Shown here: piece after piece, positions 25,617 to 44,319 of the stretch
Numbering within the stretch: position 1 is the first letter of the stretch
Layout of the letters: each line of letters begins with the position of its first letter
Source: Gilliamella bombicola
GTDB taxonomy: Bacteria; Pseudomonadota; Gammaproteobacteria; Enterobacterales; Orbaceae
Length of the DNA stretch: 64,000 bases
Assembly: GCF_900094945.1 (NCBI RefSeq)
Contig: NZ_FMAQ01000005.1
Coordinates: forward strand, 30,258-94,257
Direction: 5' to 3'
Position numbers and translations under genes: made by a program
The notes under the pieces: generated by a model
Database searches by the model: none
What the model saw: only the letters and a program-made list of their open reading frames with translations
Told to the model about the DNA's origin: nothing

Positions 25617-25660
25617 GTAACTCTTATATCTTTTTTAACAAAAACTATGTAAAGCTATTT

Positions 25661-26263: not shown

Positions 26264-27706
26264 TTATTGGCATATTGGCCTGTTGATTTTTAAACTTGAG
26301 ACCGCATTGTTCATTTGTTTAATCATATCTTGTGGACTTTGGGCTATGTAGACTTTTCCTCCAGTGGCATTAGCAATGCAATCTATTTTATGTTCGCCAG
26401 CAATATCAACGATGTTAATTTTTAATCGTGGTTTTTGTGCAGCAATATAGTTAGCCAAAGTACAAATATTATTTCTTGTACAACTGTCTTCGCCATCACT
26501 AATAATAAGAATATAATCATCACGTGTTATACCATCTAGTATTTTACTGGCTTTTTCTAGACCACTATATAAAGGTGTTCCAGCCTCGCTTGTTGTAGAG
26601 GGTGTTAATTGCTTAATTTTATGCTTTAGTGACACGCGATTAGTGTACTTATAAAATGGCGAAACATCGGCTGCGGGGCAATTCGCCAAGGTTACTAGCG
26701 ATATATCAATGTTCGGTTGTATGCTGTCAATGCTAGAAGTAGCTACACTTTTACTACTTGATAAACGAGTTGGTAAGCGCGTCATACGCTTTTCATATTT
26801 GATTTTTTCTTCCTCTGACATATTACGGCCATAATCATCCCACAAATATCGAAAGTATCGCTCAACCTCTGATGGCGATTCATTCAATGTCACTGTCATC
26901 GATGGTGAATTATCAAACACTATTGCCATTTTAGATGGATTAGGATCTTTGTTCATCTCTTCTTTAGTTATACAGTTAGGTGGATTTTTTACCTTTGGTG
27001 CTGGTGGTGGCACCGGTTTTGGTTTAGGCTCAGATATTGCTGTTGGCGTAGCTTCTTCTGGCACAGTATCTTTTGGCTCACTAACAGGCTCAGGGGGCGA
27101 TTTAGGTTCTGGTTCTGGTTTCTTTACTACAACAACTGCCATTGGATGGTGAACAGCTGACTTTTGTTTACCAAATGGGCAAAATAAATACCACAGAATA
27201 CCAAGTAAACTAATAAGCAATAAGGCTAAGAGTAAAAAATGCCACCAACGCCAAAATGGCGTTGGTGGAATAACGGGGACCACTGCAGGTAAAACCGGTT
27301 CTTCAAAGGTATTGACAATAACCGGTTCATCATTAATCACATAAATTTGGTTACCTAAACTTTTAATTCTTGGAAGCCATGCCGAAACTAAACTTCGCTC
27401 TTCACCGCTTAATGGCATTAGTTTAATAGCATTTTCAATATCATTAATACGTGTTTGTAACGTTTTGATTATCTTATTTTTATGCGATTTGTCAGCAATA
27501 CTATCAAGTAAAAGCGGTTGCCCTTCAAGATTGGTATACCAGCCTAGGTGTTGATTGTTATCAATTAGCTTTGGTGATGCTAAAATCGAAAAAGTGCGAT
27601 CGGTTAAATGTGATTTTAATAATAATAGTAAGGAATGATATTGTTCTAATAGAGATATCTTCTCTGGGTTATTATAATCAAAGGCTATCCGCATTATTCG
27701 TTGCAT
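26264..27706 (-). CDS. inner-membrane VWA protein of the srf operon (copy 1)
   Basis: This is a 480-residue single-pass protein. Residues 1-~145 form a soluble N-terminal domain with no known name (RIMRIAFDYNNPEKISLLEQY). A TM helix beginning FWRWWHFLLLALLL lies at about 151-174. Then come a Pro/Glu-rich spacer and a C-terminal von Willebrand A domain with the metal site IVFDNSPSM (DxSxS), EAGTPLYSG (Thr ligand) and LIISDGEDSC (Asp ligand). With no signal peptide and a basic residue cluster near the helix, an inside head and periplasmic VWA is the likely topology. It is a tandem paralogue of the next gene upstream and the last gene of the operon. A perfect hairpin lies inside the TM-encoding region. 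Confidence 0.72.
   Translation of the reverse strand: MQRIMRIAFDYNNPEKISLLEQYHSLLLLLKSHLTDRTFSILASPKLIDNNQHLGWYTNLEGQPLLLDSIADKSHKNKIIKTLQTRINDIENAIKLMPLSGEERSLVSAWLPRIKSLGNQIYVINDEPVIVNTFEEPVLPAVVPVIPPTPFWRWWHFLLLALLLISLLGILWYLFCPFGKQKSAVHHPMAVVVVKKPEPEPKSPPEPVSEPKDTVPEEATPTAISEPKPKPVPPPAPKVKNPPNCITKEEMNKDPNPSKMAIVFDNSPSMTVTLNESPSEVERYFRYLWDDYGRNMSEEEKIKYEKRMTRLPTRLSSSKSVATSSIDSIQPNIDISLVTLANCPAADVSPFYKYTNRVSLKHKIKQLTPSTTSEAGTPLYSGLEKASKILDGITRDDYILIISDGEDSCTRNNICTLANYIAAQKPRLKINIVDIAGEHKIDCIANATGGKVYIAQSPQDMIKQMNNAVSSLKINRPICQ
27242..27268. repeat. perfect 11-bp inverted repeat inside the VWA gene
   Basis: CCACCAACGCC (27242-27252) and GGCGTTGGTGG (27258-27268) flank AAAAT. The left arm is shared with the paralogue (28750-28760 region), but there the right arm has diverged, so the palindrome is specific to this copy. 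Confidence 0.7.
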
Positions 27707-27830
27707 TATTGATTTAATTCCTTGCAGTTGACTATTATTCTTATACTAAAATAACACTAACTTGAAACGTTTTTACGAATAGAAATATCAAAAACGAGAT
27801 ATTCAATTATCTAATATTATTTGTAAATAA

Positions 27831-29213
27831 TTATTCACATATCGGTTTACTAATATTCATATTCGAAACAGCATTATTCATTTGTTTAACTATCTGTGTT
27901 GGGTTTTGAGCGATATAAACCTTACCTCCTGTTTTTTCCGCTACACAGTCAATTTTATGCTGTCCAGCAATATCGACAATATTTATCTTTAGATGGGGTT
28001 GTTGAGCTGCGATCTTGCCGGCTAAAGTACAAATATTCGCTTTGGTACAATTATCTTCGCCATCACTAATTACTAAAATGTAATCATCATGGTTTACGCC
28101 ATCAAGCATTTTACTAGCTTGTTTTAAACCACTGTATAAAGGCGTTGCACTGTTATTTTCTAATGGATTTAACCGACTAATTTTATTTTTTAGTTTACCT
28201 CTATTTTCATAATGATAAAACGAGGTAGTTTGTGCAGCAGGGCAAGCAGAAAGAGTAACTAACGCAATATTAACATCGGGTTGTATTTTATCAATAGTCG
28301 ATAATGCAACCTTTTTACTACTTGATAAACGATTAGGTAAACGTGTCATACGTTTTTCGTATGCATCAGCTTCTTGTTCGGTCATTGAATACCAATCAGA
28401 ATTTAAGTATTGATTAATGGAGGCTTGAGATTCCATCAATGTCAATGTCATTGAGGCTGAATTGTCAAATATCATAACCATTTTAGGCTTGTCAGTATTA
28501 TTTGCAATTTCTTCACGAGTAATACAATTTTTAGGTGCTGGCTCTGGTATCGGTTCAGGCTCCGATTTTACAACGGGTTGTTCCTCTTTAGGTAGCTCAA
28601 CAACTGGATCTGGTTTCTGTTCTTCAACAGGCAGAGTAATGACAGGTTCAACATCAGCAATCACTGGCTTTTCTTTTCCATATGGACAAAATAAATACCA
28701 AAGAATACCCAGTAACCCAAGGATTAATAAGGCTAAAAGTAAAAAATGCCACCAACGCCAAAATGATTTTGGTGGAATAACTGGGACTGGTGCAGGTAAA
28801 ATGGGATCTTCAAAGATATTGACAATAACTGGGTCATCATTAATCACATAAATATGGTTACCTAAACTTTTAATTCTAGGTAACCATGATGAAATAAATG
28901 TCCGCTGCTCAGCAGTGATTGACATTAACTTAACCGTAGCTTCAATATCGTTAATACGATTTTGTAACGTTTTTTCTATCTTAGCTTTATGTGATTGATC
29001 GCTAATTTCACTCAATAAGATAGGCTGCCCTTCTAAAGGGCTGTACCATCCAATATATTGATTATCATCAATCAACCTTGGTATAGCTAAGATCGAAAAA
29101 GTACGTTCAGTTAAATGCGGTTTTAGCAATGCTAACAAAGAATTATATTGATCGAATAAAGACATCTTTTCAGAATGATTATGATCAAAAATAATTCTTG
29201 TTATTCGCTGCAT
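27831..29213 (-). CDS. inner-membrane VWA protein of the srf operon (copy 2)
   Basis: This 460-residue paralogue of the following gene has the same four parts: an N-terminal domain (RITRIIFDHNHSEKMSLFDQY), a TM helix beginning FWRWWHFLLLALL at about 151-174, a Pro/Glu-rich linker and a VWA domain with MIFDNSASM (DxSxS), SATPLYSG and VISDGEDNC. The heads and VWA domains align closely while the linkers differ, as expected after tandem duplication with a spacer under weak constraint. It lies 64 bases after the 160-residue lipoprotein gene and 124 bases before its paralogue. The paired metal-site domains may form a heterodimer in the periplasm (inference). Confidence 0.72.
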   Translation of the reverse strand: MQRITRIIFDHNHSEKMSLFDQYNSLLALLKPHLTERTFSILAIPRLIDDNQYIGWYSPLEGQPILLSEISDQSHKAKIEKTLQNRINDIEATVKLMSITAEQRTFISSWLPRIKSLGNHIYVINDDPVIVNIFEDPILPAPVPVIPPKSFWRWWHFLLLALLILGLLGILWYLFCPYGKEKPVIADVEPVITLPVEEQKPDPVVELPKEEQPVVKSEPEPIPEPAPKNCITREEIANNTDKPKMVMIFDNSASMTLTLMESQASINQYLNSDWYSMTEQEADAYEKRMTRLPNRLSSSKKVALSTIDKIQPDVNIALVTLSACPAAQTTSFYHYENRGKLKNKISRLNPLENNSATPLYSGLKQASKMLDGVNHDDYILVISDGEDNCTKANICTLAGKIAAQQPHLKINIVDIAGQHKIDCVAEKTGGKVYIAQNPTQIVKQMNNAVSNMNISKPICE

Positions 29214-29277
29214 TGCTAATTCATTCCCTTTTATTTAGCTTCTGTTTTATTTAAACATTGATTTAGTAAAAATATAT

Positions 29278-29760
29278 TTATATATTCAGTGCTTTTTGCA
29301 ATTGTTGCAGCTTTTTATTTAACTTTTCAAGCTCAACTTGTTTTTCAAGTTCAGAACTATTTGAATTGTTGACCTTATTTAGTTGCTGTTCAATATCTTT
29401 TACTTGAGCCTGCAAATCGTCACGACCTTTGGCTTTTTGTTTTACTTCATTTGTCAGTTTAGTTAAATCAGTTTTCAACTTTTGCTGCTGTGCCTGTTTT
29501 TGTTTAATGCTTAACGAGGTGGCATTTTTTTGCTTCTCGATGGTGGCATAAATCTCTTTAAACTGCTGATTAGCTCTTACTTCATTTTCTAGAATTTGTT
29601 TTTTCTGATCAATTCGAGCCTGATAATTGCCTGAATAATTACAGCTGATTTTATCCATAATTCCAATATTGGTATTAGTCGGATCGCACTGTTCGGGCGT
29701 TGTTGAACAACCAGCTAAAAAAATAAGCGGGCTGAGTAATAGAAGGTATCTTTTTTTCAT
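29278..29760 (-). CDS. coiled-coil lipoprotein of the srf operon
   Basis: This is a 160-residue lipoprotein. The signal sequence MKKRYLLLLSPLIFLAGC has a lipobox with Cys18; the +2 Ser favours the outer membrane by the Lol rule. The rest is Lys/Gln/Glu-rich with heptad spacing (EKQKNATSLSIKQKQAQQQ, KDIEQQLNKVNNS), so it is predicted to be one long coiled coil. No named family is recognised. It is two bases from the 230-residue lipoprotein gene, and the two coiled coils may pair with each other across the periplasm (inference). Confidence 0.65.
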   Translation of the reverse strand: MKKRYLLLLSPLIFLAGCSTTPEQCDPTNTNIGIMDKISCNYSGNYQARIDQKKQILENEVRANQQFKEIYATIEKQKNATSLSIKQKQAQQQKLKTDLTKLTNEVKQKAKGRDDLQAQVKDIEQQLNKVNNSNSSELEKQVELEKLNKKLQQLQKALNI

Positions 29761-29762
29761 AA

Positions 29763-30455
29763 TTAGCTCACCTTAACTGCTGAACGTTGTTTGGTAACAA
29801 GATTAATTTGATTTTCAAGTACTGATATTTGTTTATGCAATTGACTAATTTGTTGATCCAGCCTTGATACTCTAACACCTGATTGTCGTTCTTGAGAAGA
29901 TATTGAAACCCAATCATTCTCAACTTTTTTCATGCTTTTTAATTTGTCTCTTAAATAAGCGATATTTGCATCAATTTGTGTCAAATCATTTTGTGCTTGT
30001 TTTTTATTTAATGTGTCATTTTTTATTTGATTATTTAATACTTTCAGTGTTGCTAAATTCTTATCTAATACTGCTTTAGCTGTTTCGGTCACCGCTTGTA
30101 CTTCGTAAGTGTTCTTTTGAACGTCTTGAATATAAACATCTAGACGCATCTCATCATCAGCATATTCAGCCCGTTTACTGTCAAGATAATAGTTAGCCCC
30201 CATCATCACACCACAACCAACAGCCGCAGACGCAAGACATACTCCTGTTTTTCCACCAGCTAACATACAGCCAATACCACCTAAACCAGCACCGATAGCA
30301 CAAGATTGCCAAGCTGATTTGCTAAAAAACTTAGCTGTATTGCTTTTTGTTAATGCAGGATCGACATTTCTAGAACTTACTCCTCCAGAGCCTTGACACC
30401 CTGTTAAAATAAGCGATATACACAAAGTCAGTGTTACTATAATTTTATTCATCAT
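29763..30455 (-). CDS. glycine-zipper and coiled-coil lipoprotein of the srf operon
   Basis: This 230-residue lipoprotein has signal KIIVTLTLCISLILTGC with a lipobox at about Cys20. Residues about 50-80 are a Gly/Ala/Cys-rich hydrophobic stretch (AIGAGLGGIGCMLAGG, ASAAVGCGVMMGANYYLD) of glycine-zipper type that could insert in a membrane. Residues 95-230 are helical with coiled-coil spacing. The ATG overlaps the upstream FGE-like gene by four bases, so translation is coupled. No family is recognised. The zipper suggests it helps form or line a membrane passage (inference). Confidence 0.6.
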   Translation of the reverse strand: MMNKIIVTLTLCISLILTGCQGSGGVSSRNVDPALTKSNTAKFFSKSAWQSCAIGAGLGGIGCMLAGGKTGVCLASAAVGCGVMMGANYYLDSKRAEYADDEMRLDVYIQDVQKNTYEVQAVTETAKAVLDKNLATLKVLNNQIKNDTLNKKQAQNDLTQIDANIAYLRDKLKSMKKVENDWVSISSQERQSGVRVSRLDQQISQLHKQISVLENQINLVTKQRSAVKVS

Positions 30456-32068
30456 TTTTTTCCTTTTATCTCATTACACGTTTGTAGCCAAGCTGTCCGC
30501 TCGATCTTCCCCGATTCAATATATTGATTAATATGTTTGAAATAGAGTTTTAAATAATCGCTCATATTCGCTTTACCGCTATTTTCGAGAATAAATTGCG
30601 TTGATTTAACTTGATCATTAATCGTATTTTTCTCGTAATTTGACGCTGTATTAACAATCGTGTCGGAATAATATTTTAATATAAAGTCCCTAGCACTTTT
30701 AGACTCATCAACGACTTGTTTTAAATTATCAAGCTTCACTTTTGAGCACATATTGTCATCGGTTACAGTATCTGCCTCTTTTGAATCACAAACTTCATTA
30801 ATCATTGTTTTATATAAATTATCATTATACTCAAACTTGCCATTCAAATCTGAAACATTAGCGCACAAAAATGCACCTAATTGTAATGCAGATTGAATAG
30901 AACGATCTCGTTGCTCATCACGCGCTTGATTGGCGCTACGTAAAAGTGTATTGAGTTGATTTAATTCTTTTTTTGTTTTTTCATCTTCAACTTGTTTAGT
31001 GATTTTTTCAAGTTCACCGACAACATTACCATTTTTTGTGCTATCAGTTTCACTGCCTAATTCACTCCATTCTTTGTCCAGTTCTTTTATTTTGTCATTC
31101 GAATTCATCACTTCAGTTGTATAAACTAAACGAAATCCAACATCTTTACTTTTATAAGCATTTTTATCATCATAGAAAGGCTTTTCAGTACGAAAAGCAC
31201 TGGTAGTTGAAGATTCGGGCGTTAAATAGCTGCCCCCACGCACAATCATTCCGCCTTGTTGACCGTGGTAGCGATCAAGTTTATTCATTCTAAACGAATC
31301 AAACATCATTTCGCTCGCATTACCTAAAATATCATACAGATCTAGGGGATTAGGATCTAACCTACCAATAAGTTGCAATTTACCATTAGCAGACTTGGCA
31401 CCAGAAAACCACGCATAATTTTCAAGATTTTTAGTCATAGGAAACCGTGATTCACGAAATTCTGATTCTGTCACTTTTGAACCACCCCGAGCGGCATATT
31501 CCCATTCCGTATTATTGGGTAAACGGACATAACCATTCGGTAAATTTATTGATTTTATTTTTGACTGGTTTGCAAGTAACCAACGATTATATTTATCTGT
31601 AAAAGCGATAGCATCAAACCAGCTAATATCGGTGATAGGAAAGGAAAGACTTATTTTAGGAGTTGGACAAGTATCATTCATGACGGATTGATATTGCAAT
31701 GCGGTGATCTCATATTTACCTATCAAATAATAGCGCTCTTTACCTGCATCAGAAAAGCTACCAGCAATATAATTGGGCGTGGCATACTCGGCAAAACCGA
31801 GCTCTTTTTGATTACTTCCTAAAATGACTTTGACATCATCTAGCGGTTTATCGGTAGGGGTAAATACCTTTTTCATCACTAAACTACCATCACATGGCAT
31901 AGGTAAAATAACATCATCTTTTGTAGGCTTGGGATTATAAAATTTACTATCCCAAGGTTCAGCAAAGCTTAATGCCGGTAGTAAGCTAATTGTAGCCAAT
32001 CCCCAACAAGCTAATCGGATATAATTATGCTTCACGTAAGCTTTCTGCTGGTTGAATTTGAATAGCAC
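30452..32068 (-). CDS. periplasmic FGE-sulfatase (SUMF1)-fold protein
   Basis: This protein of about 538 residues has a signal peptide (YIRLACWGLATISLLPALSFA). Residues ~90-320 form a formylglycine-generating-enzyme fold: GKYEITALQYQSVM, FPITDISWFDAIAFTDKYNRW, RLPNNTEWEYAARGG, LYDILGNASEMMFDSF, GGMIVRGGSYLT and KDVGFRLVY. The C-terminal 200 residues are helical and without name. No paired catalytic cysteines are evident, so it is probably a binding or scaffold member, as are many SUMF1 proteins in secretion and conflict systems. GTG 32068 has AGGAGG five bases upstream but overlaps the permease gene by 44 bases. A GTG at 32035 would give a more usual signal peptide; the choice is open. Confidence 0.75.
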   Translation of the reverse strand: MLFKFNQQKAYVKHNYIRLACWGLATISLLPALSFAEPWDSKFYNPKPTKDDVILPMPCDGSLVMKKVFTPTDKPLDDVKVILGSNQKELGFAEYATPNYIAGSFSDAGKERYYLIGKYEITALQYQSVMNDTCPTPKISLSFPITDISWFDAIAFTDKYNRWLLANQSKIKSINLPNGYVRLPNNTEWEYAARGGSKVTESEFRESRFPMTKNLENYAWFSGAKSANGKLQLIGRLDPNPLDLYDILGNASEMMFDSFRMNKLDRYHGQQGGMIVRGGSYLTPESSTTSAFRTEKPFYDDKNAYKSKDVGFRLVYTTEVMNSNDKIKELDKEWSELGSETDSTKNGNVVGELEKITKQVEDEKTKKELNQLNTLLRSANQARDEQRDRSIQSALQLGAFLCANVSDLNGKFEYNDNLYKTMINEVCDSKEADTVTDDNMCSKVKLDNLKQVVDESKSARDFILKYYSDTIVNTASNYEKNTINDQVKSTQFILENSGKANMSDYLKLYFKHINQYIESGKIERTAWLQTCNEIKGKK

Positions 32069-33248
32069 CTCGCCCTCCTATAACCACAATGCCCGCTGAA
32101 ATAAATAAAGTCAGTAAAAATGCAATAATAAGATGATAAAATTGTAATTGACTCACAACCGATTGTGAAAGCAAATTTTTACCTAACACTAAATTAAAAG
32201 CACAATTTCCTACCGCAAACAGCCCACAAGAGATTATAAAAGCAAAACAGCTCAAAATCATTGCTTGATTAATTAAATAAAGCATAATGCCTTTCGAGCG
32301 AAATCCAAGTAATCGCATAAAAGCAATATCTTTGCGTTTACGTTCAATATTCGATAAAAATGCCCCAGTAAATGATAAAACACATCCCAATACTGCCGTA
32401 ATGGCAATAACGCTAAAAATAAAATTAAGCACTCGATCGATTGCTTGCATATTTTCAATTGCATTAGCCTCGGTACGCGTTTCTATATGTTTTTCTCGTA
32501 ATTTAAATGCTAATGGAGCCACATTATCCAGTGAGTTTGCATAAATACGGGCCCGCGCAAACGACGTATGGTGAGGTGGATTTAATTGTCCAGTAGAAGT
32601 CACAAAAACATCACTTTGATAACCATCATAATAATTTTCCATCTCAATTAGTAAATCTAAAGAGACAAAAGCCGCTGCACGGCTATAACGATTTTCGGGA
32701 ATAATACCTACCACTTCTAATTGTGTCATTCCTTTTTCAAGTTTTCCATCAAGCTGCCTTGTGATCACCATTTTCACACGACTTCCCATCGTGACTTGCA
32801 TTTTTTCGGCCGATAATGAACTTAATAAAATTTGCTTTTTATTATTAGGTAATGGCAAATTTTTTGTTATTGGATCATCTTTAGCCGTGGGAATAATTTC
32901 GGCATTATTAACAAAATGGCTAGCATCTTTCATTAAATCAGCTTGTGTATTTAATGAACGTGTGAGTGGAATAACAAAAGCTGTTTCAGGTTGCTGTTTT
33001 ATCCACTCAAACATTTCATCTTTAAGTTGCAAATTCCCCACAATTTTTATTTCTAAATTTTGCGGATCACTGAGTAATTGCTCTCGAAGCTGTGAAACAA
33101 CACCGTATTTTAAACTAAATAACAATAATAATGGCGTAATCACTGATATTACTGAGGCAATAATACAAAATGATACTTTTTTGTCATACCATAAGTCCGC
33201 TAACGATAAACGAGTAACAAGTAACCATTTTGATATTGCTTTAGTCAT
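32025..33248 (-). CDS. FtsX/MacB-type ABC transporter permease
   Basis: This 407-residue permease has one N-terminal TM (about 25-47), a large periplasmic domain (to about 270) and three TMs at the C-terminus, the LolC/LolE/MacB topology. The FtsX core is visible as GCVLSFTGAFLSNIERKRKDIAFMRLLGFRSKGIMLYL, whose coupling helix contacts the ATPase. Proteins of this type do mechanical work on periplasmic partners or lipoproteins instead of carrying solutes through the membrane. Three bases separate it from the ATPase gene upstream. A single permease gene implies a homodimer. Two lipoproteins encoded downstream are possible clients (inference). Confidence 0.82.
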   Translation of the reverse strand: MTKAISKWLLVTRLSLADLWYDKKVSFCIIASVISVITPLLLLFSLKYGVVSQLREQLLSDPQNLEIKIVGNLQLKDEMFEWIKQQPETAFVIPLTRSLNTQADLMKDASHFVNNAEIIPTAKDDPITKNLPLPNNKKQILLSSLSAEKMQVTMGSRVKMVITRQLDGKLEKGMTQLEVVGIIPENRYSRAAAFVSLDLLIEMENYYDGYQSDVFVTSTGQLNPPHHTSFARARIYANSLDNVAPLAFKLREKHIETRTEANAIENMQAIDRVLNFIFSVIAITAVLGCVLSFTGAFLSNIERKRKDIAFMRLLGFRSKGIMLYLINQAMILSCFAFIISCGLFAVGNCAFNLVLGKNLLSQSVVSQLQFYHLIIAFLLTLFISAGIVVIGGRGAIQIQPAESLREA

Positions 33249-33251
33249 TTT

Positions 33252-33968
33252 TTACGCCTTATCTTGTAACGGTGAAAATTCTGAGGATTGTGGCGAGGTT
33301 AACTTGGCTGATAACGTCAATAACCCTTTGTTAGCTATACATTGCAAGTCATGTGTGACAATCATGGCAGTAATATTATCTTGCTGAGCTTGCTCAATAA
33401 TTAAATCAAACAGTAAATTCGCATTATAGGGATCCAATGCCGAAGTCGGCTCATCGGCAAGTAATAACGCGGGTTTATGAATAATCGAACGAATAAAAGA
33501 AGCTCGTTGCCTTTCACCAATGGATAACTGTTTAGGGTGTTTATTGAGCAAATGTGCGATATTGAGTTTTTGCACTAGATAATCAAACCGGCTATTATCC
33601 ACTTTTTTTTGTAATAACTTTAATGATAATAAAATGTTGTCACGAATCGTCAAAAATGGCAGTAATCCACCTGTTTGCAGCATAAAGCCTAAATATTGAG
33701 CGCGAATATCAGCAAGTTCATCGATTTTATCTTGCTTGATTAGCGTTGCGATATCAATATCATAATTATCAACAACTAAGTTATAACTATCAATGTGGTC
33801 TGGTTTTAATATCATTCCCACCATTTCAAGTAGCGTGCTTTTACCTGCACCACTATCGCCTTGAATAACAACAACGTCACCTGCTTTGACAGTAAGCTTT
33901 GGCAGGCAAACGCTAAAAAAGGATTTACCTGTTGAGCGTGAAATCGATAATTGCTTAATATTTAACAT
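33252..33968 (-). CDS. ABC transporter ATP-binding protein (LolD/MacB-like)
   Basis: This 238-residue ATPase has Walker A GDSGAGKST (about 36-44), a Q-loop in FMLQTGGLLPFLT, signature LSIGERQRASFIRS, Walker B ALLLADEPTSALD and the switch His in IVTHD. It belongs to the LolD/FtsE/MacB group that pairs with FtsX-type permeases such as the product of the next gene. It is one base after the VWA gene and three before the permease gene, so the three are likely co-made. Confidence 0.88.
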   Translation of the reverse strand: MLNIKQLSISRSTGKSFFSVCLPKLTVKAGDVVVIQGDSGAGKSTLLEMVGMILKPDHIDSYNLVVDNYDIDIATLIKQDKIDELADIRAQYLGFMLQTGGLLPFLTIRDNILLSLKLLQKKVDNSRFDYLVQKLNIAHLLNKHPKQLSIGERQRASFIRSIIHKPALLLADEPTSALDPYNANLLFDLIIEQAQQDNITAMIVTHDLQCIANKGLLTLSAKLTSPQSSEFSPLQDKA

Positions 33969-33969
33969 A

Positions 33970-35934: not shown

Positions 35935-35946
35935 TCTTGCTCCTCA

Positions 35947-36945
35947 TTATTTTTGTAATTCGGTTAAACGATCTTTAACGAACGTATTATTTGCATCGTT
36001 AGTCAAAGACGTTTCATACCAATAAATAGCCGTTTCTTTATCTGCTTTAAAGCAATTATTTGCTTCATAATATTTTTCGTCATACTCTTTTGCATATAAC
36101 ATCGCAATTTTAGAATTAGTTTGAGCCTGATTTGCATATAACCGCTGAGCAATATTACATTTTTCAGTTTTTTTAGCTTCAGTAATGATTTGAATAATGG
36201 CATCCGTCTCTGGTTTGGTCTGTAAACATTGTTGAATAAAGGTTAAATCATCAGCAGAGGCGTTGTTCAAACTACATTGACCACTAATTTGCACTGCTGG
36301 AGTTGGTTGTGATTGATTTTTGGGAAATAAAAAATACCATGCAGCAATACCAAGTCCAATTAGCACTATACAACCGATAATAATAGCCACAATTAACCCT
36401 AGGCGACTTTTGGATTTAACTGGTTCCACTGGTATTATTTCTAGTTCTGGTTCGATAGGTTCCGCTAACGTTCCACTTTCAGGATCAAGGCTAGATTCTT
36501 CAATTAATGGTGTTTGCTCTTCAATAATAGAATCACTAACAGGATCTGGCTGCGCTATAGTTTGCTCGTCATTCGGTAATGCGGTTTGTAAGTTTAATGC
36601 TGTTGATGCAAGAACTGAGTCAGCAATACTCACAACTCCTCCATCAACATAATTCTCATTTTGCTTATCACGAATTTGTATAAGAAATCGAATCTGGCTT
36701 TCTTGTGATAATAAAGAGTCGACCAGCCATTCACCAATTTGTCCTGTTAATTGTCCATTATAAACGGACATATTTTCAACGGCGTGCCAGTTTTTTTCAG
36801 GACTCCATTGATTCAAACCAGATAAATAATAGCCGTCTTGATTTCGTTGTATAAGCATATCAATGTTAGAACTACCACTCCATTTTTGAGCTAAAAACTT
36901 CGCAATACCGGGTTTATAACCATCTAATTCTATTCTTAATGCCAT
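35947..36945 (-). CDS. single-pass membrane protein with periplasmic repeat domain, srf operon
   Basis: This protein of about 332 residues has a cytoplasmic head (1-~95; ALRIELDGYKPGIAKFLAQ, IGEWLVDSLLSQESQIRFLIQ), an acidic Pro/Glu linker, one TM helix (LGLIVAIIIGCIVLIGLGIAAWYFLF, about 185-210) and a C-terminal Cys-containing helical domain with TPR/Sel1-like spacing (YEANNCFKADKETAIYWYETSL). ATG 36945 with AGAGGA just upstream is preferred to an ATG eight codons earlier. The head-linker-TM-domain plan matches SrfA and both terminal VWA proteins. A 106-base gap separates it from srfC, the only sizeable gap in the front half of the operon, so an internal promoter is possible. Confidence 0.62.
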   Translation of the reverse strand: MALRIELDGYKPGIAKFLAQKWSGSSNIDMLIQRNQDGYYLSGLNQWSPEKNWHAVENMSVYNGQLTGQIGEWLVDSLLSQESQIRFLIQIRDKQNENYVDGGVVSIADSVLASTALNLQTALPNDEQTIAQPDPVSDSIIEEQTPLIEESSLDPESGTLAEPIEPELEIIPVEPVKSKSRLGLIVAIIIGCIVLIGLGIAAWYFLFPKNQSQPTPAVQISGQCSLNNASADDLTFIQQCLQTKPETDAIIQIITEAKKTEKCNIAQRLYANQAQTNSKIAMLYAKEYDEKYYEANNCFKADKETAIYWYETSLTNDANNTFVKDRLTELQK

Positions 36946-37051
36946 GATATCCTCTATTTTTATACTCAAATATGTAAGTACTTTTTATCTGAGCTATTGA
37001 ATAGGAAAGGGCGTTTCGCTCAAAAAGACTTTCCTACTATACTTTGTTATT

Positions 37052-39724
37052 TTAACTAATCCGCGATTGCTTGAAAAAAGCAAGAATTTCGCCCAATCGG
37101 CTATTTTGTTCTTGGCTAATTTCGCGTCCTGCATGATGCCCTACATTTTCTTGCGCAAGCATAGCAAAGGCAATAAACCAATCAAATATTGCATACTGAG
37201 AATAATTTTTAGTGTTGTCGTCCAGTTTTGGTAATAAATGCGATGATTGCACATTAAATTCGCTTAATGGTGAAGAAAATATTGGTTTACCCTGATTAAC
37301 TTTGCTCATTGGTATATCACTTGCTTGCCCTTGAATAAAACCAAGCCAAGCAATAAAGTCGGCCAGTAACGTATGAATAGTACTGACTTGTCTAGACTCT
37401 AGATCATCACGTTTACTACCTGTATTTTCATTATGCAAAATGCGTTCACTTAAACTTGCTTCAAGTTTCATTCGATTTGCAGCAGTAATCAGTTCTTCTA
37501 CCATAAAAGAGAGTGATTTTTGACTGATACCAAAAAAATCTAAGATATGCTTATCTAGCACAATATTTCTTAAATGATCTAACCATGCCGAAAAAACTGT
37601 TTTTGCAAACTTTGATTCCGTAGGTAATAGGGTGCTTTGTTTGGTGGTTGATGACGAATTAACATCAGAGAATAGTTCAAAGTCAGCCGTTAAACCAAAA
37701 TCATTAGATAAATTATCTAACAAATTATCATTGCCAGCTTGCTGCGTTTCATTTTCGACAGTATTGGAGTGATAAAGCGCTCTAATGGTTTGATCTGGCA
37801 GTTCAAACACTTTAAGTAGCTCGCCTAATAATAGTGCTTTACTCTGTAATTCTTTAACGACATCAGCAATGATTTGTTTTTTCTTAGCTAGCTCTTCAGC
37901 ATTGTCTGCTTGATACCAAGTATCAAAACGCATATTAATGATATATGCAATTTTTTCATTAAGCTGTTCAACAATTCGTTGCTGTTTAACTTCAGTAATA
38001 GCCACTTGTTCTAAGTATTGGCTAATTCGTCCTATACCACCATCATTGAGTTTTAACATGGCATCCCATGTTTCTTCTGGCTGGAACACGTACTGTTTGA
38101 TATCACTATTTTGCACAAATGTACTTCTTAATACATTCATTTTATCTTGATAATTTTCATTATAAGATTGCTCTTGGCAGGTGTTCGGATCGACATTTAA
38201 AAACGGTACATCAAACCCCGGTTTGCGGACAAGAAAGACATTATTAAATTGATGCTCGTTAGACCAATTGCTTAACCAATCGTAACTACCAAAGCGTTCT
38301 AAAATAGTTTGCTGAAGTAACCCACCTTTACCCCAGCTATTTTTAAGATTGTCTTCTGATAGCGTTAATGAGGTACCAATACGTTTATCAAACATGGTAA
38401 TTGCCCATAATAACCCTGCTTTTTTCGTTGCTCTTTTTTCAGCTGTTTCACCTTGGGTTTTATCGATCCAACGCTCAAGTACTGGACCAACATCATTAAC
38501 ATCTGATTGTTTATCTGACGGAGTGCAAACAACTAGCACATTCATTTCTTGATTATCAGTATATTTTTCAAAAAGATAAGCAACTTTACCACGCAATAAA
38601 AGCTGAGCAATGGGGTTGCCTTCTTTCACATCTGAAATCGATATCAAATTTAAACGCCCACGATATCCAGGAAAATCAAGTAAATCCACATTTTCAAAAG
38701 TTGGCACTCTGGTTTTATTGACTAATGGGAAAATTAATTCGGCGGTTAAAAAAGCCAATTGCGCTAAAGATATTGATGTTGGTTCACTATTTAACGGCGT
38801 TATGGTAATCGATGAATCTTTGTCGGTATTTAATCGCTCAAGAATATCAACATTCATAATACTGTCAATTTGCGACTTGGTACCATTATTATCTTTCACT
38901 AATACTGAAAGCGGTGCATACACAGTTTCAGCATGGTGTAAACTTGATAATGTGGTGGCTAATTGAGTATAAATTATCGTCAGTTCAGTAATTCCACCCC
39001 ATAAGACAGAAAACAGCTCACCACGCTCAGCTATTGATAAATAAGGAATAAGGTGCGTTACTTTTTCCCAATATCCCCCTTTCAATTCTTCAAGCGAATT
39101 ACCAAAGTTTTCAGATAAATAATCGTAAAGATCAACAATATCATCCTCGCTAACACCACCAACATAATTGGTTTGTTTCTGATTTTCTAAGCGTTGAATG
39201 GTCTGATTTAACGGTGCAAACTCGATTTTATTAGATACTTTTTGCTGATCAAAATCTTTAAAATAAGCATTTATCAAGATTTTGACTATTTCGATCTCTT
39301 TAAATAATTTTAATTCTAACGGATAGTTAGGTATGCCCCCTTTGGCAATGCGGCTAAAGCGAGTGACAAGCCCCGTCGCCTCTTTGCCACTACCTACGGG
39401 ATTAACATGGTCAATAAAATCTAACACTTCATTATCGACAACCGTTTCAAGCTTACCATTTTCACCAGCTGCAAGTGCTGAAATAAGGTAAGATTTACCT
39501 GCCTGTGATAATCCAAAAAAACCAACTGCAACAGATTTAGTTGAGACATCTCCCAATCGTTTTGCGCTGTTACGCAAACGACGCAAATCCAAAATTAAGT
39601 TATCCGCTTCGCTATTTAAACGTTTAGATGAATGCCGTGTTTGGTTCACCCACTCAATAGCCTTTGCAGATGCTTGATAGACCTGATCCCAAGATTTAGG
39701 CAGTTGTTCATTTAAGTTTTTCAT
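37052..39724 (-). CDS. srfC: SrfC-family dynamin-like GTPase
   Basis: This 890-residue protein matches the putative virulence factor SrfC. A large GTPase-type domain has the P-loop GLSQAGKS (residues 71-78), the G3-like DLLDFPGYRGR and the G4-like AITMFDKRIG, followed by long helical regions, as in dynamin-like proteins. No signal peptide or TM is seen, so it is cytoplasmic. srfC overlaps srfB by four bases (ATGA). In Salmonella srfABC was named as SsrB-regulated genes, and a Xenorhabdus SrfABC was reported toxic to animal cells (recalled, not checked). The mechanism is not established. I infer an NTP-driven remodelling role at the inner membrane with SrfA and SrfB. Confidence 0.82.
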   Translation of the reverse strand: MKNLNEQLPKSWDQVYQASAKAIEWVNQTRHSSKRLNSEADNLILDLRRLRNSAKRLGDVSTKSVAVGFFGLSQAGKSYLISALAAGENGKLETVVDNEVLDFIDHVNPVGSGKEATGLVTRFSRIAKGGIPNYPLELKLFKEIEIVKILINAYFKDFDQQKVSNKIEFAPLNQTIQRLENQKQTNYVGGVSEDDIVDLYDYLSENFGNSLEELKGGYWEKVTHLIPYLSIAERGELFSVLWGGITELTIIYTQLATTLSSLHHAETVYAPLSVLVKDNNGTKSQIDSIMNVDILERLNTDKDSSITITPLNSEPTSISLAQLAFLTAELIFPLVNKTRVPTFENVDLLDFPGYRGRLNLISISDVKEGNPIAQLLLRGKVAYLFEKYTDNQEMNVLVVCTPSDKQSDVNDVGPVLERWIDKTQGETAEKRATKKAGLLWAITMFDKRIGTSLTLSEDNLKNSWGKGGLLQQTILERFGSYDWLSNWSNEHQFNNVFLVRKPGFDVPFLNVDPNTCQEQSYNENYQDKMNVLRSTFVQNSDIKQYVFQPEETWDAMLKLNDGGIGRISQYLEQVAITEVKQQRIVEQLNEKIAYIINMRFDTWYQADNAEELAKKKQIIADVVKELQSKALLLGELLKVFELPDQTIRALYHSNTVENETQQAGNDNLLDNLSNDFGLTADFELFSDVNSSSTTKQSTLLPTESKFAKTVFSAWLDHLRNIVLDKHILDFFGISQKSLSFMVEELITAANRMKLEASLSERILHNENTGSKRDDLESRQVSTIHTLLADFIAWLGFIQGQASDIPMSKVNQGKPIFSSPLSEFNVQSSHLLPKLDDNTKNYSQYAIFDWFIAFAMLAQENVGHHAGREISQEQNSRLGEILAFFKQSRIS

Positions 39725-42700
39725 CGTTTTATCATTCCACTATCAAGCCAATATTGCGTACTTATTAACCCCGAGTTAACCATGGTGTTTAAACTTAGTT
39801 TAATATCCTGATTTTTATTACAGGCTCGCCCATCTGAGGCTTTTACTTCTTTAATATAAAAATTTTCGATCGTTTTTTGTTTATTTTTTATGCCTAAAGT
39901 AACTTCTAGAACGACGCCTTCAGCACTTAATCGCTTAGCTACCTCACTGTTTTCAATCGTTAAAATATAGATAGGCGATGCCGGCCAACGGTCAACGTCA
40001 AGTTGCCTAAAGCCAAGTCTTGTAGTACCTCGAATTTCAAATGAGAGATCAGGAAAATCATAATCAGGATTATCCAAATCAATATCTTGGTAATAGACAT
40101 TTTCTTTTTTAATCATATTAAGATTATCTAAAAGTCCAATGTACTTAACGGTTGAATATAAATCTATATTAGAGGATCTAAAATAGAAATTAGGTAATCG
40201 TAAATTCTTGCTTAAAAAGCATAGCATCGCCCCCACGGCTGCCGTTGTTTTAGGATCATCAATTCGCTCTTGTTTATGGAAAGGATACCAACCACCTGTA
40301 TAATAACCATGCAAAGGTAAAATTCGTCCAGCAGGCATAGATAAGCGTGATCGGAAATAACTTTGGATACCAGGTAAACGCGAAGGACGACCAGTTAACA
40401 AAAGAACATCACACTGATAACAACTAATAATTTCGGATAATGCATCAAACGTTTTACAAATATTGTAATAATCACCCCGAATAAACAAATAATGAATACG
40501 TTTAAGGTTAATCTCAATACTTAAGTTAAGTACTGAAAAATCAGGATTATTTAATGCGCGCTTAATCGGTTCATTAATAAAATTGAGCACGTTATCGGTC
40601 ATCATATTGTGTTGTAATAATTCACCGAAAGTAGAACAATAGACATGTTGCTCTGTGTGTAATGGGTCATAAAGTTCGTACGCTTTTAATATTTGTAATC
40701 CAATTGGTGTAAATAGCTGTAAGGTAAGTTGCTGGCGTAATACCGCATCTTGAATGGATAGTTGCTGAGAGCCAATAATGGTGGACAAAATTGGGTTAGG
40801 GTCTGCAATTCCAGCTTGTTTTAAACCATTGGTTAAAGCCGTTATAACGGTATCTTGGATAATATCGAGTAAAATATCATCCCCAGCGACTTTGAACCCA
40901 TCACGAAAAAGCTGAGTTGGCACAATATAGGCATTACTACTGTTGGCTTGCCCGTTAACGCCGTAGTCTAATTGATAATCGTTAATCACTAAATCGGTTG
41001 TGCCACCACCAATATCAACCGTTGCAATCGTTAGCTTTTGCTTATCAGCTTTCCCCGGACGGATCATTGAGGCAATAAACTCTTCACATCGCCCATTATA
41101 ATTATTTTGTGTTTCATTAAAAAGATACACAACTTGGCCACAAGTCGCTTCATCCCATTGAATATAAACTTCAGGAATATTTGGCCAAACACTTTTTAAT
41201 TGCTCAGGGTTATTGAAATCAATATTGTCATCTGAACTATCCCAACCAAGGCTTTTCCAAACCAAACCGATGGCTTGATATACGCAACTTTTAAATATTG
41301 CTTGTTCGGGTTTTGGCATGGCTGGCGGAATCGTTAAAATAATTGAACGTAAATTACGTGGTGTTTTCGCATGCTCTAGTTTATTACGCTGAGCGACACT
41401 ATTCATTTGCATTAATGCATGCATTAATACTTCACATAACATAAACGTCATCAAAGAACTGCGAGAGTATTTTGGGTGGAAAACCGGCATTTTGCGATCA
41501 TACTCTTCTTGAATATCATTGCTAAGAATATGCAACGCTTCACCATATTCATTAATTAAACTCGAAAAAGGCTCTGCCGTTGCAAATGGTTCATGATCAC
41601 TTTTTACATAATGAGAGTTAAAACGCCACCCTTGTTCATATTTATCTTGATCCCACAAATAACGTTTTGGGCTTGAAAGTCCCGTTGCGCCTTCATTGCC
41701 TTCACGCCGACTGGCAAGTCGGCTTGCTTCTTGACCAACACGGACAATACTTGGCCAACGAAACGTGTCACGTCGCCCACTTTGCAAAGAAAAATGTTCC
41801 TTGCCAAAAAAAGTTTGGGCAAATTCAACTCGACTTTCAAACGGTTCATTATAAATATGTTCAGGCTGAGTTAAATCACGGATTTCAAGCTCATAACGAT
41901 GATTTAAACTATCTTTATCTTGGGCATGATCTTCAATTAGAATCCCACAAGTGCGTGAATTACCCACATCTAAAATCATATCGACAGGAATTGATTTCAC
42001 CACATCATCTTTATTATTTGATACAATTTTAATTGTCGGTAATTGCAATGAATCGGCAAGTAAATGGATAATATTTAGGTAGTGTCCATAATAAGATTTG
42101 CTTTTAATTTCTTGATTAAGATCATCTTTATGGATCTTTAACCGCTCAGATTGTGGCGCCAGCTCTTGAAAGAGATCAATTAACCAACTGGTTATCCATT
42201 TGAGCTCTAAATACCATGAAACCTGATCAGAACGATGTGCTAAACTAAAGACTGCACCAGTCATCACATCATTTTCGGTTGGAGCAAGATAAGCCACATC
42301 TTGTAAGTTAGCAAATACTTTTGTATCAAAAGCAAACGTAATTCGATGTGTATTACCATCAGGATCTTCACCTTCAGGAATGCTAACAATTCGAACTCGG
42401 CTCCAATTATGCGGTCCTTGATCAAAGCGCTCTGGCGGTATTGAACGCAAAACAGGCACAGGTAACCAAATACCATCGTATAATTTTAACGACTGATCAA
42501 CACTAATTTCTTGTGTTGGTTTGACAGCAAATGTTGGATTATCAGGTGTAAAAAATTGACCACTTTCCACATCTTCAATCAATCTGATGAGTGCACCACT
42601 TTCTGATGGATCAATAAAGGCTCCATTGACTTTACTGCGCCATTGATTATCTTTCCAATCGATTTTAAGTGCAAAATCAAGAAACTGAATACCACTATTC

Positions 42701-42747
42701 ATAATCAGTGTCACTTCTTGACCATAATTGCGTAATTCTGGAAGCAT
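39721..42747 (-). CDS. srfB: SrfB-family Hsp70/actin-fold ATPase
   Basis: This 1008-residue cytoplasmic protein belongs to the virulence factor SrfB family. It has an ASKHA (actin/Hsp70) nucleotide fold: phosphate-1 MILDVGNSRTCGILIED at about 257-273, phosphate-2 IATVDIGGGTTDLVINDY near 575-590, and the adenosine motif VLLLTGRPSRLPGIQSYF near 780. The N-terminal 250 residues and the C-terminal beta-rich part are specific to SrfB. It starts nine bases after srfA and overlaps srfC by four. An ATP-driven switch paired with a GTPase and a membrane anchor is the plausible role (inference); the substrate is unknown. Confidence 0.85.
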   Translation of the reverse strand: MLPELRNYGQEVTLIMNSGIQFLDFALKIDWKDNQWRSKVNGAFIDPSESGALIRLIEDVESGQFFTPDNPTFAVKPTQEISVDQSLKLYDGIWLPVPVLRSIPPERFDQGPHNWSRVRIVSIPEGEDPDGNTHRITFAFDTKVFANLQDVAYLAPTENDVMTGAVFSLAHRSDQVSWYLELKWITSWLIDLFQELAPQSERLKIHKDDLNQEIKSKSYYGHYLNIIHLLADSLQLPTIKIVSNNKDDVVKSIPVDMILDVGNSRTCGILIEDHAQDKDSLNHRYELEIRDLTQPEHIYNEPFESRVEFAQTFFGKEHFSLQSGRRDTFRWPSIVRVGQEASRLASRREGNEGATGLSSPKRYLWDQDKYEQGWRFNSHYVKSDHEPFATAEPFSSLINEYGEALHILSNDIQEEYDRKMPVFHPKYSRSSLMTFMLCEVLMHALMQMNSVAQRNKLEHAKTPRNLRSIILTIPPAMPKPEQAIFKSCVYQAIGLVWKSLGWDSSDDNIDFNNPEQLKSVWPNIPEVYIQWDEATCGQVVYLFNETQNNYNGRCEEFIASMIRPGKADKQKLTIATVDIGGGTTDLVINDYQLDYGVNGQANSSNAYIVPTQLFRDGFKVAGDDILLDIIQDTVITALTNGLKQAGIADPNPILSTIIGSQQLSIQDAVLRQQLTLQLFTPIGLQILKAYELYDPLHTEQHVYCSTFGELLQHNMMTDNVLNFINEPIKRALNNPDFSVLNLSIEINLKRIHYLFIRGDYYNICKTFDALSEIISCYQCDVLLLTGRPSRLPGIQSYFRSRLSMPAGRILPLHGYYTGGWYPFHKQERIDDPKTTAAVGAMLCFLSKNLRLPNFYFRSSNIDLYSTVKYIGLLDNLNMIKKENVYYQDIDLDNPDYDFPDLSFEIRGTTRLGFRQLDVDRWPASPIYILTIENSEVAKRLSAEGVVLEVTLGIKNKQKTIENFYIKEVKASDGRACNKNQDIKLSLNTMVNSGLISTQYWLDSGMIKR

Positions 42748-42756
42748 ATATAACCT

Positions 42757-44319
42757 TTATTGTTTTTTCATCGTTATTGGGAATGCAGTCCCATTATTAT
42801 AAATTCCTTGGCAATTGGCTTTATTATCTTTGCCTGGTGTGCATTGAATTTTGGGTAATTGATATTTGGTGTTATCACTGCAAACAGCCTCAGTATTACC
42901 CGCTATACCTAAATTAGCATTTTTAATATCGGTGCCAACATTACCTGTACATTTTACACCGTCACTACGCGTTATAGTGACTTCGCCATTACCATCTTTA
43001 AAGTTATAACTTAATTGCAACGGTTTACCTGTGGCTTTGTCTTGAATACCCCCATTGGCAGACCATTGACCATCTAAGAATTTTGTAGAGCCTTGCTTGA
43101 TTGCATCTGCTGGTAAGGCTAAATTATTGGTTTGATCAACCGCAGAGTTAGAATCTGCTTTATTGTCTTTATCTGATGGCGAAGAAGTTTGGTCAGCGCT
43201 ATCTTTGTCTTGTCCATTTTGAACATCTGTATTATCTTTTTTATCGGGAGCGGTAGGCGTTGATTTTTCATCTTTATCATCTGTTTTACCCACATCAGGC
43301 GCAGTCACTTGATCATTTTTATTATCTTGCGCATCTGGATTTGAAGTATTATTACCCTCATTTGCATTATCTGGTGCTACAGAATGATCAACCGAATCAC
43401 TTGCTACATTGGGGTTAGTTGGAGTATTGGTTGCATTGTCTAAAATCGTGCCATTTGGTATAGCACTACCCGTGACACCGAACCGATTATCAACAACCAC
43501 ATCTCTTGGCTCAGTTTTTAATGCTGGATCTATCGCTTTTTTATCCTGTTTGTCATCCTTTTCAGGTTGACTAATATTGTTATTATCTAAAGATACATTC
43601 GGATTAATCGATAGCTCAGGTTTTAACCAACAACCGCGTAGCAAAAATAACGCTAATAGAAGCAACAATAATAATGGTAATAACCCTAGCAACCATATCC
43701 ACCAACGTTTCCACCATGGTTTATTATCAATAAGCGTCGCAGAAGTAACTGCTGCTGCTTGTGCAACTTTTGCTACCGGCTCTAAACTATAGAATGGAGA
43801 ATTTCCCTGAGAGATGTGCGGATACACAAATCCCCAGAAAGTAATCACCGGTTTACCGTTAACAATATAAACAAATTGATTACTGGGAAAACGTATTGCC
43901 ATCAAATTAGGTTCAGCACTATCAACATTATTTTTTGGATCATAAATAAGACGGCTAAAAAGCAGTTGATCACCTTTTAAATTAGGATTACTGGCTAGCT
44001 GTTTGCCAAAATTCATCACTTTATGTTCAAATTCTTTCAGTAAAGCCAGCGCTGACTGTTGCTCAGATTCACTAGCTGAAGTCCAAGGAACAATATCATA
44101 TTGCCCATCAGGCTGATTTGAATCAAAAGGAATATACCAATCGATAATATTACCTTGATCATTGCGTTGAGGAATAGCTAAATAATCGGCATATTGTTTG
44201 CCTAATTTAACTCTAAACATTTCACGGATTTGAGCTGCAACTAAATAAGCGGCTTTACCATCATGCCCTAGCATTTTAAAATTTTTAATATCACCACTTC
44301 GAAGTAATGTATTTGCCAT
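42757..44319 (-). CDS. srfA: SrfA-family membrane protein
   Basis: This 520-residue protein opens with the conserved SrfA head (TLLRSGDIKNFKMLGHDGK, YLAIPQRNDQGNIIDWYIPF, DIVPWTSASESEQ). A Trp/Arg-capped TM helix (WWKRWWIWLLGLLPLLLLLL, about 203-230) follows, then a 190-residue Asp/Asn/Lys-rich low-complexity linker and a C-terminal ~95-residue domain (FLDGQWSANGGIQDKATGK, four cysteines) placed in the periplasm. The linker could reach across the peptidoglycan. AAGGAAC precedes the ATG. It is the first gene of the 12-gene operon, so the 44320-44590 gap should contain the main promoter. Confidence 0.82.
   Translation of the reverse strand: MANTLLRSGDIKNFKMLGHDGKAAYLVAAQIREMFRVKLGKQYADYLAIPQRNDQGNIIDWYIPFDSNQPDGQYDIVPWTSASESEQQSALALLKEFEHKVMNFGKQLASNPNLKGDQLLFSRLIYDPKNNVDSAEPNLMAIRFPSNQFVYIVNGKPVITFWGFVYPHISQGNSPFYSLEPVAKVAQAAAVTSATLIDNKPWWKRWWIWLLGLLPLLLLLLLALFLLRGCWLKPELSINPNVSLDNNNISQPEKDDKQDKKAIDPALKTEPRDVVVDNRFGVTGSAIPNGTILDNATNTPTNPNVASDSVDHSVAPDNANEGNNTSNPDAQDNKNDQVTAPDVGKTDDKDEKSTPTAPDKKDNTDVQNGQDKDSADQTSSPSDKDNKADSNSAVDQTNNLALPADAIKQGSTKFLDGQWSANGGIQDKATGKPLQLSYNFKDGNGEVTITRSDGVKCTGNVGTDIKNANLGIAGNTEAVCSDNTKYQLPKIQCTPGKDNKANCQGIYNNGTAFPITMKKQ

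Follow-up and report, generated by a model that had tools for sequence, protein, structure and literature searches.

The srfABC operon of Gilliamella bombicola encodes predicted homologues of the PpkA-TagTSRQ damage sensor and no kinase

In Pseudomonas aeruginosa, damage to the outer membrane by a tip or by polymyxin B nonapeptide is reported to trigger the type VI secretion system (T6SS) via TagQRST-PpkA (PMC11881912), and an outer VWA sensor domain has been proposed for PpkA (PMC3224232). Of a second system, srfABC, it is reported that SrfA, SrfB and SrfC co-immunoprecipitate as a complex and that lysates of Xenorhabdus as well as the three GST-tagged proteins are cytotoxic to cell lines, and SrfABC was read as a toxin (PMC6950479). 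In Salmonella, loss of srfC or of srfABC is described as impairing swarming and leaving swimming normal, the operon being under control of FlhDC (PMC4219756). Both systems have been placed together before: in host-associated Deltaproteobacteria, srfABC is reported with tagQ, ppkA and often tagRST, only one of these bacteria having T6SS machinery and PpkA being taken as a kinase (PMC3608642, 2013), and genes for T6SS control are reported beside srfABC in Xenorhabdus (PMC6950479). Here we analyzed a srfABC operon in a stretch of 64,000 nucleotides of the bee gut bacterium Gilliamella bombicola (referred to as the window; the assembly has 2.32 Mb in 29 contigs, completeness 100). As judged from sequence, five of the nine genes that accompany srfABC are homologues of PpkA (ectodomain), TagT, TagS, TagR and TagQ of the Pseudomonas H1-T6SS in identical order, and a counterpart of the kinase half of PpkA is lacking.

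The operon consists of twelve open reading frames (ORFs) on the minus strand at 26264-44319, all of them present and open, which agrees with the first-pass annotation of the window in number, strand and span. The order is SrfA, SrfB, SrfC, orf340, VWA, ABC, FtsX, FGE, lipoprotein 1, lipoprotein 2, VWA2a and VWA2b, and Pfam and NCBIfam matches were obtained for SrfA, SrfB, SrfC, VWA, ABC, FtsX and FGE:

SrfA, 42757..44319, minus strand: predicted cytoplasmic head, transmembrane segment (TM) at 208-226, outer domain with four conserved cysteines; NF040486, 316 bits (cut-off 150)
SrfB, 39721..42747, minus strand: ASKHA-type ATPase by its motifs; PF07520, 1357 bits; no hydrophobic segment
SrfC, 37052..39724, minus strand: P-loop GTPase, possibly dynamin-like; PF10139 (Virul_Fac), 997 bits
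orf340, 35947..36969 (likely start 36945), minus strand: beta-sandwich head, TM at 190-214, Sel1/TPR-like outer domain; AlphaFold2
VWAsp, 33970..35934, minus strand: corresponds to the extracytoplasmic half of PpkA, with no kinase and with a signal peptide of its own (by eye)
TagT-like ABC ATPase, 33252..33968, minus strand: ABC_tran; 246-259 bits to T6SS TagT
TagS-like permease of FtsX/MacB type, 32025..33248, minus strand: FtsX; four hydrophobic segments
TagR-like FGE-fold protein, 30452..32068, minus strand: PF03781, 124 bits; signal peptide by eye; probably non-catalytic
TagQ-like lipoprotein (lipoprotein 1), 29763..30455, minus strand: placed by the order T-S-R-Q and 39-68 bits; lipobox by eye
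Second coiled-coil lipoprotein (lipoprotein 2, accessory), 29278..29760, minus strand: strong homologue beside TagQ in 5 of 80 loci; lipobox by eye
VWA2a, 27831..29213, minus strand: SrfA-type head, TM and VWA domain; AlphaFold2 pLDDT 85
VWA2b, 26264..27706, minus strand: SrfA-type head, TM and VWA domain, a paralogue with a head 70% identical to that of VWA2a

The genes are separated by 9 bp (SrfA-SrfB), -4 (SrfB-SrfC), 82 (SrfC-orf340), 12 (orf340-VWA), 1 (VWA-ABC), 3 (ABC-FtsX), -44 (FtsX-FGE), -4 (FGE-lipoprotein 1), 2 (lipoprotein 1-lipoprotein 2), 64 (lipoprotein 2-VWA2a) and 124 bp (VWA2a-VWA2b). Hence, only two overlaps of 4 bases occur where several had been announced; the few gaps above 100 bp amount to one, or to two with the ATG at 36945 as start of orf340, a position that agrees with the start of its homologues and would widen the SrfC-orf340 gap to 106 bp.

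The sensor genes were compared by profiles that were built from the genes of the window together with their relatives at 80 srfB loci and run on nine T6SS loci of Pseudomonadaceae, chosen around TagQ matches above cut-off (PpkA is truncated at the contig end in L127). All nine loci were matched in the same order, with 558-589 bits for PpkA, 246-259 for TagT, 353-379 for TagS, 279-299 for TagR and 39-68 for TagQ. In a whole-genome search of six Pseudomonadaceae genomes with T6SS, TagS reached 359-389 bits at the T6SS locus and the next permease at most 42. The VWA profile spans PpkA from behind its TM to its end (residues 397-1016 of 1016 in L123), and the kinase domain lies at 12-254 (L123) and 9-250 (L125) in the two PpkA proteins scanned; whole PpkA against PDB returned kinases only among the 60 matches listed. 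The metal site of the VWA domain is kept, with D237 and S241 in 62 of 62 rows and T239 in 60, as are the Walker, signature and H motifs of TagT in an alignment that includes some other ABC ATPases. Matches to FtsX, ABC_tran and FGE-sulfatase likewise support the FtsX-type ABC pair and the FGE fold proposed earlier, and the signal peptides of VWA and FGE and the lipoboxes of both lipoproteins could be seen by eye in the translations.

Two of these assignments call for qualification. A catalytic cysteine pair lies near the end of the domain in FGE enzymes. Within residues 135-401 of the FGE protein, no column has more than 20 cysteines among 60 rows, and the protein is therefore probably non-catalytic despite its PF03781 fold; searches against PDB gave weak matches to FGE-fold entries including PorK. 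For lipoprotein 1, a match to NF041250 (E 7.5e-8) was rejected as proof of TagQ, as 118 of 148 Pseudomonadaceae genomes match this model, only 18 of them above cut-off, and E. coli and Caulobacter match it as well. Because NF041250 is unspecific, the TagQ assignment draws on gene order and on the srf-built profile. By the lipoprotein sorting rule, we take the TagQ-like lipoprotein to be located at the outer membrane.

The kinase half of PpkA has no counterpart at the srf loci. When the N-terminal 400 residues of eight PpkA proteins were used as a profile, no kinase was identified among the 6812 ORFs at the 80 loci; all 12 matches below E 1 were orf340 ORFs, which have linker and TM in common with PpkA. 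Also matches of orf340, SrfA and VWA2a to PpkA (domain scores of 14-25 bits) were rejected as homology, since they comprise a proline-rich linker and TM only. The VWA proteins are 551-700 residues long in 60 of 61 cases, and the single one of 967 was taken as an overextended ORF. The window's own genome has no Pfam Pkinase match and no match to the T6SS sheath protein TssC, the one marker used (VgrG and secretins were not searched), so that the first-pass statement that no secretion-system core is present holds as far as TssC is concerned. Other Gilliamella are reported to carry T6SS (PMC8125069). Among the srfB carriers, TssC was surveyed in 76 genomes, which leaves out L051, L022, L025 and L029, and occurred in 57 of them (36 of 49 and 21 of 27). 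Of the 19 carriers without TssC, 16 have the full operon; absence of T6SS from these is judged by one marker in genomes of unstated completeness, some being metagenome bins.

SrfA, SrfB and SrfC are adjacent and each scores above its curated cut-off. ASKHA ATPases share a pattern of two phosphate motifs and an adenosine motif, to which DxGNS, DIGGGTTDL and GRPSRLPG correspond in SrfB; D260, G262-S264, G268, D578, G580-T583, D585, L586, G786 and R787 are identical in 81 of 81 aligned rows. Sequence and profile searches of SrfB against PDB gave no useful match, and its earlier description as ASKHA is thus retained on its motifs. In SrfC, the P-loop residues G71, G76 and K77 are present in 80 of 81 rows and S78 in 72, and DFPG is mostly retained, which agrees with a P-loop GTPase. 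The dynamin part of the earlier label found no family match by profile: Pfam gave Virul_Fac only for the window protein and MMR_HSR1 weakly in 4 of 17 relatives, and sequence and profile searches against PDB returned nothing useful (top GBP2 at E 1.3). SrfC is possibly related to dynamins. By hydropathy, SrfB has no membrane segment and SrfC a weak stretch of 1.7, and neither has a signal peptide by eye.

SrfA, orf340, VWA2a and VWA2b have one hydrophobic segment each, consistent with the four head-TM-outer-domain proteins previously proposed, two of which were also modelled by AlphaFold2: orf340 with a beta-sandwich head, TM and helical-repeat end (pLDDT 83), and VWA2a with an alpha/beta head, TM and VWA domain. 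Profile comparison indicates that SrfA shares its head with the VWA adaptors. A profile of the adaptor head matched SrfA proteins, among the matches listed, at E 2.3e-37 (L050), 2.9e-23 (L085), 9.4e-23 (L020) and 1.5e-22 (L087); the pairwise comparison of VWA2a with SrfA of the window reached E 7.5e-4 only. A fold search with orf340 gave generic beta sandwiches only in the 50 best rows (antibody, T-cell receptor, TEAD, CBM56), and one with VWA2a mostly VWA domains in the 50 best rows and no match for the SrfA-type head. Conserved cysteine columns of SrfA (457/480/493/503, plus 178 in half of the rows and 230), TagQ (52/63/73/81), orf340 (232/248/271/306) and VWA (46/98) fall mostly within the predicted outer regions. 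The SrfA ORF of Xenorhabdus griffiniae (L050:8089-9993) contains the SrfA-type head twice (profile matches at 41-143 and 191-380).

SrfB relatives are encoded in at least 519 stretches of a collection with one genome per species, the closest among the matches listed being that of Gilliamella sp. Pas-s25 (99%). The 80 srfB loci are the best matches to the window among these and lean to near kin; 76 of them extend at least 8 kb behind srfB and can be evaluated. In 60 of the 76, orf340-VWA-TagT-TagS follow srfC, in 59 together with TagR and in 58 with TagQ, and orf340 occurs in 62 of all 80. As these 60 loci come from Gammaproteobacteria and Alphaproteobacteria and, in one case, from a metagenome bin whose title names an Ignavibacteriota genus, and the order is kept in such distant bacteria, a chance origin of the cluster is untenable. 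srfABC thus does not usually occur apart from its neighbors, only 14 loci carrying none of them, and of the envelope-spanning NTPase machine inferred in the first-pass annotation, one conserved unit of cytoplasmic NTPases and periplasmic parts is upheld. The VWA adaptors and lipoprotein 2 do not belong to its core: proteins with head and VWA were found in 13 of 80 loci and strong homologues of lipoprotein 2 in 5, each beside TagQ, plus two weaker matches, all of these counts being lower bounds since the 10-kb flank mostly ends near TagQ. Beyond srfA and tagQ, no neighbor present in at least five loci was counted outside genus-level synteny.

Two loci are partial: L052, which has orf340 alone, and L083, in which an ABC ATPase match lies on the opposite strand. 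L052 and L056 (Thiocapsa) have SrfA-type head proteins and SrfB and no VWA-TagTSRQ genes; L052 keeps SrfC as a split ORF and orf340, and no SrfC ORF was found in L056. Four loci (L064, L078, L081, L084) are permuted, with TagQ, lipoprotein 2 and a VWA-less head-type protein preceding srfA and TagR coming last. In an even class sample of 369 genomes, SrfB was above cut-off in seven, of which four also have TagS, among them G136 and G013, with the operon of G013 split by a contig end. Of the three without TagS, one is cut at a contig end, and two of the same genus have a SrfB-like protein without nearby SrfC. These two (L178 and L179, from G068 and G199) represent a separate SrfB context: the protein is about 35% identical, no SrfC lies in the stretch, and the flanking genes encode 333 and 362-367 amino acids (aa).

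TagS also occurs without srfABC. In the class sample it was found at E 1e-30 or better in 26 genomes, 22 of them without SrfB above cut-off, and 19 of these 22 loci (L158-L176; three partial matches were left out) were examined together with one srf control. In all 19, a kinase-less VWA gene and TagT adjoin TagS, and no match to a kinase or to srfABC was found in the stretch. In L176 the contig ends within the VWA ORF, and in L159 this ORF is split into two parts. A TagR match occurred in one locus (L174) and a TagQ match in none; some loci, such as L167 and L170, stop too close behind TagS to be informative. Of the 19 loci, 18 (all except the cut L176) also encode a small TM protein that has a Sel1-like end and aligns with the outer part of orf340 (hhalign 99.4%, 119 columns); the cytoplasmic head is absent from most of six such sequences compared. 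In the nine T6SS loci no TM-Sel1 protein was found. Within the class sample, this standalone form (19 loci) is commoner than the srf form (4 genomes).

In an unrooted tree of TagS and the VWA ectodomain, srf (28 rows; support 100/99), T6SS (7 rows; 100/100) and standalone sequences (17 rows; 88/84) each fall on one side of a branch. The tree has 52 rows, without L159, L176 and two T6SS loci; its T6SS rows come from one family, L174 has a long branch and several rows are of odd composition. An earlier tree including TagR (69 rows, quick method) gave the srf/T6SS split at 100, with the warning that long branches meet there. As only one lineage of the three has the kinase, parsimony leans towards a kinase gain on the T6SS branch.

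Around the operon, few signals were found. A promoter scan 5' of srfA returned 8 sites against 3.5 expected by chance, the top site on the minus strand being 44617-44590; no terminator-like site was found on this strand in 25300-26400, and an Rfam scan of 23000-47000 gave no match. PADLOC, run on ten of the twelve proteins (VWA2a and lipoprotein 2 were left out), gave no convincing match to a defence system: the ABC ATPase reached 75 bits with mad3 and lower scores with other ATPases, and the remaining proteins gave nothing or weak coiled-coil or P-loop matches. Upstream of srfA, 44591-46465 encodes a glutathionylspermidine synthetase/amidase-like protein (CHAP + GSP_synth), which adjoins srfABC in 9 of 80 loci, all nine of Gilliamella. 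The operon is followed by an orphan ORF of 548 aa (23698-25344) without Pfam match, whose reading begins within a short tandem repeat (ASGIGHR, by eye); three similar ORFs are situated upstream of srfA in Orbaceae ESL0727 (L015).

Taken together, we tentatively favor a reading in which the operon encodes a machine that senses envelope stress (damage or strain) and responds to it, signalling via single-TM adaptors to the SrfB ATPase and the SrfC GTPase. The TagQ-like lipoprotein, the TagR-like FGE protein and the PpkA-type VWA ectodomain would surround a mechanotransmission ABC complex of TagTS on the periplasmic side. Assuming the same signal, this sensor half would detect damage to the outer membrane, or strain in it, in the manner of TagQRST-PpkA in Pseudomonas. 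Because the kinase half of PpkA is missing, we propose that the signal crosses the inner membrane via orf340 and the three proteins with SrfA-type heads, which may contact SrfB or SrfC. The adaptors would then switch the cytoplasmic SrfA-SrfB-SrfC complex with its ATPase and GTPase, which might act locally on the envelope, e.g., by remodelling the inner membrane. SrfABC is placed at the output since the adaptors have cytoplasmic heads and SrfA, SrfB and SrfC reportedly form a complex; it may be a machine that responds to damage, not a toxin.

Several observations weigh against this reading. At 14 of the 76 loci (12 from Enterobacterales, e.g., Yersinia, Pectobacterium, Dickeya and Brenneria, in addition to Azomonas agilis and the Thiocapsa locus L056), srfB occurs without any sensor gene, in 13 cases with SrfC, indicating that SrfABC can work without the sensor. 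The sensor in turn occurs without srfABC in all 19 non-srf loci, and the operon of G136 shows no TagR or TagQ match within 4 kb after TagS. TssC is common among carriers (57 of 76), leaving room for crosstalk with T6SS. In addition, 11 of the 16 TssC-negative genomes with the full operon have a Pkinase match above the Pfam cut-off elsewhere, and a separate kinase could serve there; absence of the kinase as a general rule for carrier genomes was therefore rejected.

The alternative that survives best, which we nevertheless consider rather unlikely, is that sensor and SrfABC are independent and share an operon for regulatory convenience, TagTS itself being the effector as an ABC machine for lipoproteins or lipids. 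That each half is found alone (14 of 76 srfB loci, 19 of 19 standalone VWA-T-S loci) is in line with this, as is the LolCDE/MacB type of TagTS. However, orf340-VWA-TagT-TagS remain behind srfC in 60 of 76 loci across great distance, and the srf form of orf340 has a cytoplasmic head that most of the six standalone relatives lack, as expected if it reaches SrfABC.

Less probable still is an accessory role in surface motility, in which the operon would adapt the envelope for swarming. The swarming defect of Salmonella srfC and srfABC mutants, which swim normally, and the control by FlhDC (PMC4219756) would fit, as would the frequency of flagellin, found in 44 of 47 carriers and 200 of 369 class genomes; both are consistent with a role of SrfABC at surfaces. 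On the other hand, the two flagellin samples were not balanced for ancestry, the loci analyzed here do not include Salmonella, and carriers without flagellin exist (L015, L017 and L028, and also G136, which is not among the positives listed).

We regard as quite improbable that SrfABC is a tripartite exported toxin whose release the Tag neighbors merely regulate, as might be concluded from the cytotoxicity reported for Xenorhabdus lysates and GST-tagged SrfA, SrfB and SrfC (PMC6950479) and from the proposal of 2013 that PpkA could trigger export of SrfC (PMC3608642). SrfA has a TM segment, and SrfB and SrfC lack a visible signal peptide, as effectors of injection systems also do, and other export routes are conceivable. 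Furthermore, the window's genome has neither a TssC nor a Pkinase match and its PpkA-like protein is kinase-less. Carriers also include Halomonas, Azotobacter and many Pseudomonas, groups that are largely free-living. Finally, a degenerate leftover of a T6SS regulatory locus, to which the TssC-free genome might point given that other Gilliamella carry T6SS (PMC8125069), is hardly credible, as all ORFs are open, the motifs are kept over 62-81 rows, and srf forms its own deep branch (SH-aLRT 100 with 60 rows, 100/99 with 28) and is not nested in T6SS.

With somewhat more reserve than the sensing-and-response reading itself, we suggest a wider view: the PpkA-TagTS sensor might not be a T6SS device at root. 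It may instead be a general, mostly kinase-less envelope module (TM-Sel1, VWA ectodomain, TagT, TagS) fitted with different outputs, namely a Ser/Thr kinase that fires T6SS, the SrfABC NTPase complex, or nothing encoded nearby; in that case, SrfABC would act as a machine for repair or remodelling, driven by nucleotides and called to sites of outer-membrane injury. The T6SS pathway would be recast, as its sensing part appears to be wider, and perhaps older, than the weapon, and the ligand of the sensor is open to study in T6SS-free strains. Moreover, SrfB and SrfC are labelled only putative virulence factors, as previously noted, and linking them with a sensor whose stimulus is known opens their role to testing.

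The linkage of srfABC with tagQRST/ppkA has been in print since 2013 (PMC3608642); the PpkA-TagTSRQ homology of the window genes had been missed in the first-pass annotation. The missing kinase and the standalone lineage were not found in print: a full-text literature search, with most subscription papers outside its coverage, returned among the matches listed no report of either or of the three-way split. The window operon resembles the H1-T6SS threonine phosphorylation pathway in having the same five homologues in the same order, with the PpkA ectodomain aligned almost over its full length; unlike in that pathway, there is no kinase domain in the operon and no TssC in the genome, TagQ is only weakly similar, and the sequences form a separate deep branch. 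With the srfABC operons of Salmonella, Xenorhabdus and Deltaproteobacteria it shares SrfA, SrfB and SrfC, all above curated cut-offs. It differs from the 12 enterobacterial srfABC loci among the 76, which are sensor-free, and two VWA adaptors as well as a second lipoprotein are present in addition. The standalone TM-Sel1/VWA/TagT/TagS operon has the same kinase-less VWA ectodomain beside TagTS; in contrast to the window, it has no srfABC and no TagQ match, TagR in one locus (some, such as L167 and L170, stop too early at contig ends) and a TM-Sel1 protein without the cytoplasmic head in most of the six sequences compared. Finally, the FtsX domain, the LolD/FtsE-like ATPase and the four hydrophobic segments are those of the LolCDE/MacB mechanotransmission ABC systems, from which TagS of the window nevertheless stands apart, with at most 42 bits to other FtsX-type permeases in the six Pseudomonadaceae genomes.

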